From NCBI RefSeq assembly GCF_000430025.1, contig NZ_KE387020.1, positions 166,626-230,625 on the forward strand: a stretch of DNA of 64,000 nt, given 5' to 3'. How positions within the stretch are numbered: the stretch's first letter is position 1; each line of letters opens with the position of its first letter. The notes under the pieces were generated by a model that had not been told where the DNA came from, ran no database searches, and saw only the letters and a program-made list of their open reading frames with translations. This document shows positions 34,966 to 35,599 of the stretch, in pieces. The position numbers and the translations under genes are program-made. This stretch comes from Flavobacterium suncheonense GH29-5 = DSM 17707 (GTDB taxonomy: Bacteria > Bacteroidota > Bacteroidia > Flavobacteriales > Flavobacteriaceae).

Positions 34966-35484
34966 CTACAATTGCAACTTCTCCTTTATACTATCTGACA
35001 ACCGATCAAAATGTTCTTTCTCCAGTTGCAGTTGCTCCAAGGTGTACAGGTTATGCTTATGCAAGGTCTTTAAAGCGCGGTCTCTGATAATCAGCAGCAA
35101 ATCTGTATCAACGGGGAATTCCTGCTGGTTTTCCAGAAAGGCAACCATTTCGAGCGCCGCGAGGCTTTCCCTGCGGTGGTTTTCAATCGTCTCTAAGGCT
35201 TTTTGCACGCGGTATTGTTTGATTTGAATGCCCAGATAATACTGTTTTAGTTTTTCTTTTGCTTTCTGTTCTTCGGCTTTTAAAACCTGCGCTACTTCTT
35301 TTGACGTTTGTTTTCGCTCCCGGACAGCCTTCAACAAAAAAGCCAAGTGCAGCTTAGCATCAAGAGGAATATCCCGCATTCCGGATTTAAACATTTTCCA
35401 CTGACCGGTAGAAATACGCAACAGCATCGCCATTTCTTCCTGGGTTAATCCCAGCAGTTTTTTTAATTCAGGTCGCTTTCTCAT
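34966..35484 (-). CDS. XRE-like HTH regulator with coiled-coil C-terminus
   Basis: 172 residues. An N-terminal helix-turn-helix reads LKKLLGLTQEEMAMLLRISTGQWKMFKSGMRDIPLDAK, close to Cro/XRE proteins though the recognition helix is shorter than usual. The rest is helical and charged (EEQKAKEKLKQYYLGIQIKQ), with a Leu-rich end. No ligand domain is recognised. The gene is followed upstream by four GTGACTTT/AAAGTCAC half-sites, so autoregulation is likely. It has no obvious antitoxin or phage neighbour. Confidence 0.78.
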   Translation of the reverse strand: MRKRPELKKLLGLTQEEMAMLLRISTGQWKMFKSGMRDIPLDAKLHLAFLLKAVRERKQTSKEVAQVLKAEEQKAKEKLKQYYLGIQIKQYRVQKALETIENHRRESLAALEMVAFLENQQEFPVDTDLLLIIRDRALKTLHKHNLYTLEQLQLEKEHFDRLSDSIKEKLQL

Positions 35485-35486
35485 TG

Positions 35487-35519
35487 GTGACTTTTTTGTT
35501 TTTTTCTTTGGAAAGTCAC
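35487..35519. promoter_or_regulatory. Inverted repeat GTGACTTT/AAAGTCAC, unit 1
   Basis: Perfect 8-bp arms at 35487-35494 and 35512-35519 lie immediately before the start codon of the XRE-like gene. The same arrangement appears exactly 80 bp further upstream. Confidence 0.7.
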
Positions 35520-35566
35520 AACTTTTGTGCCTTTTTTAAAAAAAATAAAATTTAGTCCCAAAAAGT

Positions 35567-35599
35567 GTGACTTTTTTGAAAATTATTTTTTTAAGTCAC
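35567..35599. promoter_or_regulatory. Inverted repeat GTGACTT/AAGTCAC, unit 2
   Basis: Perfect 7-bp arms at 35567-35573 and 35593-35599. Both arms are 80 bp from their counterparts in unit 1, making a two-fold operator-like array that spans the gene's promoter region. Confidence 0.7.

Follow-up and report, generated by a model that had tools for sequence, protein, structure and literature searches.

XRE-type regulators that control their own genes through several operators include the controller proteins of restriction-modification systems and lambda repressor. Phased repeated boxes are also found before the genes of NrdR and MraZ, or before their targets, although these regulators belong to different protein families and their boxes are spaced differently from the XRE-like arrays considered here. 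In MatP/matS, Noc/NBS and ParB/parS, one protein serves dispersed sites, an arrangement like that considered here. Among dispersed repeats, REPs coevolve with RAYT genes and usually number more than 100 copies per genome (PMC2817692, in the part available), and they lie mainly between unidirectional and convergent ORFs (PMC3733652, likewise in part); a table in a REP survey, with counts in thousands, lists two Flavobacterium genomes (PMC12306157, in excerpt). Finally, the Xre-RES system of Pseudomonas putida has an HTH protein with higher-order binding to promoter repeats (PMC12204516, in excerpt).

Here we analyze an array of inverted repeats that precedes the gene of an XRE-like protein in the window (the whole 64-kb stretch of DNA under study), together with its relatives in Flavobacterium. 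These arrays covary with the adjacent protein and are dispersed to other chromosomal places, and this favors an undescribed system of sites and protein over an ordinary switch. In the open-access literature (subscription papers and preprints being outside the scope of the search), we found no description of such an array and protein.

Results

Three wide dyads with a 40-bp period precede the XRE-like gene

The features of the locus are:

34966 to 35484, minus strand: open reading frame of the XRE-like protein, 172 aa, with an N-terminal HTH and long helices; ATG at 35484
35386 to 35409, minus strand: predicted recognition helix, codons 26 to 33 (from the structural model and covariation; positions computed from the ATG)
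35487 to 35519, minus strand: dyad 3, adjoining the gene and ending 2 bp before the ATG (from sequence)
35527 to 35559, minus strand: dyad 2, in the middle, degenerate (GTGCC/GTCCC on the plus strand; from the period-40 register)
35567 to 35599, minus strand: dyad 1, GTGAC-N23-GTCAC, farthest from the gene (from sequence)
35487 to 35599, no strand assigned: the complete array of six half-sites, 113 bp with a period of 40 (from alignment, model match and shuffles)

The window array is made of three 33-bp dyads of the form GTGAC-N23-GTCAC (inverted repeats of 5+23+5) with 7-bp spacers between them, giving six half-sites that start at offsets 0, 28, 40, 68, 80 and 108. The initial annotation of this DNA had placed GTGACTTTTTTG at 35487 and 35567 and AAGTCACA at 35513 and 35593, each pair 80 bp apart, and all four are indeed there. 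It had read them as four half-sites with an 80-bp period, forming two inverted repeats at the start of the regulator gene. The location was right, as the array lies just upstream of the ATG, but the repeats number three rather than two, and the half-sites six rather than four, since the degenerate middle dyad had been overlooked. Its half-sites (GTGCC at 35527-35531 and GTCCC at 35555-35559) lie exactly 40 bp from both neighbors, and because this dyad is present, the true period is 40 bp and not 80.

We found exact GTGACTTTTTTG in the window only at 35487 and 35567, and AAGTCACA on either strand at five places, compared to 1.7 expected. The array score (75.8) was the best three-unit score in the 200-bp region; 120 dinucleotide-preserving shuffles, in which all periods from 34 to 46 were permitted, had a mean score of 41.5 (sd 3.2) and never exceeded 54.4. 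All 113 bp also match the covariance model R1 described below, a match that is true by construction since the window array is one of the model's 15 rows.

The protein is modeled as an HTH domain joined to a long helical rod

In an AlphaFold2 model of the window protein (mean pLDDT 84.5, from a seven-sequence alignment), HTH helices at residues 15-21 and 26-33 are followed by a 79-residue helix at 41-119, which would be ~118 Å long at 1.5 Å per residue, and by helices at 127-143 and 146-170. By sequence, the window protein matches Pfam HTH_19 weakly and below the cut-off (22.9 bits; cut-off 30.2), and the first 60 residues of the homologue L100 match HTH_3 (24.0; cut-off 23). Of the proteins with solved structures, a lambda-repressor-like one is closest in sequence (E 0.0016). 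In Foldseek comparisons with solved structures, matches were to HTH domains or to long helices of unrelated proteins; ~40 residues align to C.AhdI, CylR2 and C.Kpn2I with probability 0.97-0.99, none at E <= 0.001, and the long helical rod likewise had no significant match among solved structures at that threshold. The window protein is thus predicted to have an HTH fold with a recognition helix.

We considered that the protein might be a phage or plasmid repressor, and set this aside since the viral-contig, phage and plasmid collections hold no relative at E <= 1e-3; PHROGs regulators match only at E 0.0018. A role as the Xre antitoxin of a type II toxin-antitoxin system was also rejected, since no toxin gene lies downstream at the window locus, where we found no minus-strand ORF of at least 50 aa between 34205 and 34965 that could share the operon.

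Relatives of the gene have arrays of the same architecture but different sequence

A seven-sequence profile found matches in 72 of 398 Flavobacterium genomes (58 at E <= 1e-10), a count that includes HTH-only and fragment matches. Gene-bearing genomes have from one to six matches, and the window genome has three. Outside the genus, the profile gave only HTH-sized or partial matches (349 and 189 genomes, overlapping sets). With weak or fragmentary matches left out, we fetched 116 gene regions, and we compared 115 upstream regions (118 loci less L018, which is the L068 gene; L048, which has lost its start and has an internal stop; and L161, with less than 160 bp upstream).

Direct repeats of 6-mers were present at a lag of 40 in 69 of these 115 regions (shuffle mean 3.45) and at a lag of 41 in 34 (shuffle mean 2.40), and inverted 6-mers peaked at 27-31 and 67-71 bp. 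In 80 regions, the best score for three wide dyads exceeded the maximum of 115 control regions, with a period of 40 in 58 and of 41 in 17. In a stricter search that demanded GT in at least four half-sites and covered 260 bp upstream, 44 of the 115 regions scored above all of 345 controls. The highest-scoring control (56.4) comes from a coding repeat of period 39 in L125; 90 regions exceed the next control (35.8). The 44 arrays lie from 1 to 125 bp from the ATG in the 260 bp searched (32 within 31 bp, the others at 35-125 bp). Conservation is much the same at each of their six half-sites (5.3-5.6 of 6 bases, leave-one-out), while the next would-be half-sites on the outside are at background level (1.8 and 1.6); since the arrays were picked by score, the inner values are favored by the selection, whereas the outer drop is not.

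Across the family, the dyads are 33-35 bp wide with a period of 40-41 bp. The half-site is GTGACTT at the window gene, GTTTCAA and GTAATCA at two paralogues in the same genome, and GTGTTAA, GTTGCAA, GTAGCAA, GTGAGCA and more in other members. The architecture is therefore kept in the Flavobacterium relatives, and the half-site sequence varies from gene to gene. The initial annotation had made its case depend on conservation of the half-sites upstream of homologues; their sequence varies, but the architecture is conserved, and the sequence shifts with the recognition helix (below).

We noted two neighbors of the family genes. A conserved protein of ~135 aa is encoded downstream on the same strand in 38 of the 116 family genes (L148, L150, L152 and others), and the window gene lacks it. 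This protein has no Pfam match up to E 1 and matches PADLOC models only at 0.034; its model consists of long helices only (pLDDT 91.9), with Foldseek matches that are coiled-coil-like and only at E >= 0.12. In addition, at L056, L075, L111, L112, L121, L124 and L146, a neighbor belonging to one cluster lies within two genes, and we take this cluster to resemble the methylase subunit of type I restriction-modification systems.

The half-site covaries with four residues of the recognition helix

We measured mutual information between all variable protein columns and bases 3-7 of the half-site in 43 non-redundant pairs (<80% identity), with z values from 100 permutations that are blind to kinship. 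The strongest couplings were residue 30 with base 4 (z 10.9), residue 26 with base 5 (z 10.9), residue 27 with base 3 (z 7.6) and residue 31 with base 3 (z 7.5), followed by residue 37 with base 4 (z 5.7). Residues 26, 27, 30 and 31 all lie in the predicted recognition helix (26-33); kinship acts on all columns, whereas the top couplings fall in this one helix.

The same correspondence appears in simple counts over the 44 pairs from regions above the 56.4 threshold, with categories picked after the table was seen. R26 goes with C5 in 26 of 28 pairs and K26 with T5 in 8 of 9; A30 goes with A4 in 17 of 18, S30 with a base other than A4 in 20 of 20, and L31 with A3 in 4 of 4. G27 goes with T3 in 9 of 10, the sole exception being the window's own gene (G27 with G3), and S27 with a base other than T3 in 29 of 30. 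Because the half-site covaries with the recognition helix, the adjacent XRE-like protein most probably binds the array, as the initial annotation had also proposed. Within a fixed geometry, these four helix residues largely specify three of the base positions in the half-site, and the protein-site pairs form a natural series of DNA-binding specificities. Since the residues largely predict the bases in this geometry, both the recognition code and its evolution are directly testable.

Arrays are dispersed at places without the gene

A search of the genome for further half-sites, suggested in the initial annotation, proved productive: four further places carry the window's own half-site without the gene, with three dyads each at C1:143740, C3:82829 and C5:223585 and two clear dyads at C1:397429. 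A GTTGC array with two clear dyads was found at C13:548, its sequence being close to the GTTKC site of the paralogue L148. Over the genus, a pattern of two GTGAC dyads, with up to one mismatch allowed, occurred in 8 of 398 genomes, all among the 72 gene-bearing ones, compared to none for the reversed control.

For wider searches we used a covariance model, R1, whose rows are 15 arrays from upstream of family genes, supplied by 10 array-positive genomes. Arrays matching R1 occur in at least 62 of the 398 genomes, of which 53 are gene-bearing (Fisher p 3.7e-40) and 9 are not; 19 gene-bearing genomes have no R1 array. With the stringent gene count (E <= 1e-10), arrays were found in 52 of 58 genomes compared to 10 of 340, and in 42 of 48 compared to 10 of 340 when the 10 row-supplying genomes were subtracted. 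In the 9 array-bearing genomes without a family gene, a broader profile found partial, mostly HTH-sized matches in six and nothing in three. An R1 search of 188 further family genomes (one of them, G060, from the same genus) found arrays in none. All R1 counts are lower bounds, as stricter filters were used, at most 9 candidates per genome were scored in the genus search and at most 19 in that of the further family genomes, and the model overlooks the array of the L149 gene; in the window's own genome, R1 finds 7 places, for a total of at least 8 with L149.

Among the places listed, there are 113 distinct arrays, of which 35 have a detected gene no more than 400 bp downstream and 78 are orphans. 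We examined 54 orphans (50 of the 78 listed and 4 found by pattern only), and the family profile found no gene next to any of them. A weak family-profile match (E 4.8e-5) lies ~1.5 kb from orphan L237, and by our reading, L190 and L245 have a short HTH-looking ORF as neighbor. For 25 of 46 orphans, bases 3-5 of the half-site are the same as in a gene array of that genome, and for 21 they differ; with permuted genomes the mean was 12.6 matches, and 18 of 5000 permutations reached 25. A fourth dyad is nearly always absent (L252 matches both would-be half-sites, 5/7 each, and L260 matches one).

The 54 orphans are found between tandem genes (23), convergent genes (20) and divergent genes (7), at contig edges (3) and within an ORF (1). 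Leaving out the last four, we compared the orientation of the flanking genes with a background drawn from the 116 gene regions that also counts the family genes; the 50 orphans are partly dependent, with copies in G578 and positions shared across genomes. Orphans were enriched between convergent genes (20/50 compared to 0.162; p 5e-5) and depleted between divergent genes (7/50 compared to 0.369; p 6e-4), with 23/50 between tandem genes compared to 0.469. Thus, most orphans are probably not operators of their neighbors.

Several orphans were distinctive in sequence. At L238 (G426, around 2501), the dyads alternate GTGAC, GTTGC, GTGAC. At L241 (G414, around 2501), two arrays adjoin, the first with half-site GTGGCAA and a score of 90.8, in a genome with a partial HTH match only. 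In G466, the GTGACAA orphans L254 and L269 have a period of 41, like the L146 gene array, and three GTGTCAA orphans have a period of 40, so the period may go with the protein.

Discussion

A proposed model for binding, repression and bridging

We estimate a probability of about 0.75 for the joint reading that the adjacent XRE-like protein binds the array, represses its own gene and also coats or bridges the dispersed sites. This reading builds on the observed architecture, its conservation, the protein-site covariation, the dispersal and the depletion from divergent regions, and adds to them a stoichiometry, a repression and a bridging or architectural role that we infer. Six HTH heads, most simply three dimers, would occupy the six half-sites, most likely cooperatively. 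Since the array reaches the start codon and covers the likely transcription start, binding there would most likely repress the gene in negative autoregulation. Since like arrays, about half of those tested sharing bases of their half-site with a gene array of their own genome, are found at other, mostly non-divergent intergenic places, the same protein most likely coats or bridges these dispersed chromosomal arrays.

Promoters in Bacteroidota have the motif TTG-N17-22-TANNTTTG. We found both boxes in 1 of 44 upstream regions, which did not locate the promoter, and TANNTTTG alone in 13 of 44, compared to 11% of shuffles.

At 10.5 bp per helical turn, the period of 40 bp corresponds to 3.8 turns. 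The half-sites within one dyad are 28 bp (~95 Å) apart, a distance that the long helix could span, and those on the two sides of a 7-bp gap, at a distance of 12 bp, face almost the same way on the helix. The dimer could pair either the wide or the narrow set of half-sites. Three wide dyads (33 bp) outscore three narrow ones (17 bp) in 54 of 60 strong loci, and the 44 arrays start and finish with complete wide dyads. The alternating dyads of L238, taken alone, would favor the wide dyad. Agreement between half-sites was 0.523 for the wide pair and 0.500 for the narrow pair, and 1517 of 5000 permutations were as high; this comparison used 81 arrays, including the 37 of 54 orphans accepted by the locator, among which L238 is absent.

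The role of the orphans is likely to be either in chromosome architecture or as a REP-like element, with an ordinary regulon less likely. A tentative form of the architectural role, which we consider one possibility, is a Flavobacterium-specific class of chromosome-organizing systems, with one to six rod-shaped HTH proteins per genome that would have private half-sites, a four-residue code and a bridging or coating function. Each protein would coat or bridge a few dispersed three-dyad arrays in addition to its own promoter; evolution would change its specificity rapidly but preserve the geometry of six half-sites and a 40-bp period. If the orphans are bound, then a large and common genus would have a so far unrecognized set of dispersed sites on its chromosomes, and a single cell would use several specificities at once.

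Alternative explanations

The alternative that survives best, although we consider it doubtful, is that the arrays are selfish dispersed repeats of the REP or MITE kind, that is, a mobile element, small and non-autonomous, which lodges in intergenic DNA poor in promoters and with which the XRE-like gene is associated, possibly as a regulator. Five array copies in G578 (L190-L194) are near-identical, their likeness reaching past the array by ~20 bp at one end and ~50 bp at the other, and L190 and L192 remain alike further downstream. Since these copies are near-identical past the array and share their ends, the arrays were copied along with their flanks and look like a copied element. The preference of the orphans for convergent places also resembles that described for REPs (PMC3733652, in the part available), and the association with a gene recalls the coevolution of RAYT genes and REPs (PMC2817692, likewise). 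In contrast, the search for a transposase or nuclease in the window protein found only HTH and long helices, with no transposase model matching up to E 1, and the copies are few, the own genome having at least 8. Furthermore, G426, G557 and G612 have an array (L238, L247 and L249) at a common position, downstream of the same gene, with half-sites that are mixed and partly different. A shared position with partly diverged sequence looks more like long-kept sites than recent insertions. We take the gene upstream of this shared array to be ahcY-like.

An ordinary small regulon, in which every array is the operator of the adjacent gene, is unlikely. It would account for the position of the gene-adjacent arrays, most of which end near the ATG (32/44, as above), and for the orphans found in divergent regions, for example one between what we take to be an sdhC-like gene and the gene of a Crp-like regulator; it could also draw on the 23 of 50 orphans that tandem genes flank, since these may affect the gene that follows. 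However, the orphans are depleted between divergent and enriched between convergent genes, and the genes that neighbor them are heterogeneous. A classical promoter regulon is thus weakened by the orientation test. CRP-like operators were rejected, since both the order and the spacing of the half-sites differ from the CRP consensus.

The initial annotation had read the locus as a duplicated operator pair 80 bp apart that loops the DNA. A multiplied operator fits what we see, but nothing that we found demands looping, and we consider the 80-bp loop very improbable. In the window, the two outer dyads are better preserved than the middle one, as that reading would have it; however, there is a middle dyad in the window, it is strong in relatives, and the period is mostly 40 or 41 bp, and with the middle dyad found we rejected the 80-bp loop. 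Least probable of all, inverted repeats acting as RNA hairpins in a 5' leader would explain the covariation of stem columns, but G-U pairs are nearly absent (3/315 cells), as one would expect if the dyads act as DNA and not as RNA stems. Hairpins would also have no need for the common sequence seen at all six half-sites of an array, many orphans lie between convergent genes, and the half-site is coupled to the recognition helix. We rejected this reading on the scarcity of G-U pairs and the likeness of the six half-sites.

Comparison with known systems

Compared to MatP/matS, Noc/NBS and ParB/parS as they are generally described, the present system differs in its six-half-site array, in having several private specificities per genome and in its patchy occurrence inside one genus.

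Xre-RES resembles this locus in that the gene of an HTH protein is preceded by repeats (PMC12204516, in the excerpt available), with binding putative here. In contrast to Xre-RES, the window has no toxin partner, the dyads measure 33-35 bp and recur every 40-41 bp, further arrays lie elsewhere in the genome, and the protein has a long helical rod without a significant structural match.

The nearest published pattern that we found is that of REP repeats and RAYT genes, or REPtrons (PMC2817692 and PMC3733652, as far as the available parts go). Both systems have dispersed extragenic palindromes that are tied to, and coevolve with, a cognate gene (PMC2817692, in part), and both sets of repeats lie mostly between convergent or unidirectional genes (PMC3733652, in part), as we observed for the orphans. 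The two differ in that no model for the tyrosine (HUH) transposase matched the protein here up to E 1, and in copy number, which is high for REPs and here amounts to 7 R1 places and the L149 gene array. They also differ in form: the arrays here have a fixed triple architecture with a 40-bp period, whose dyads are probably read by an HTH.
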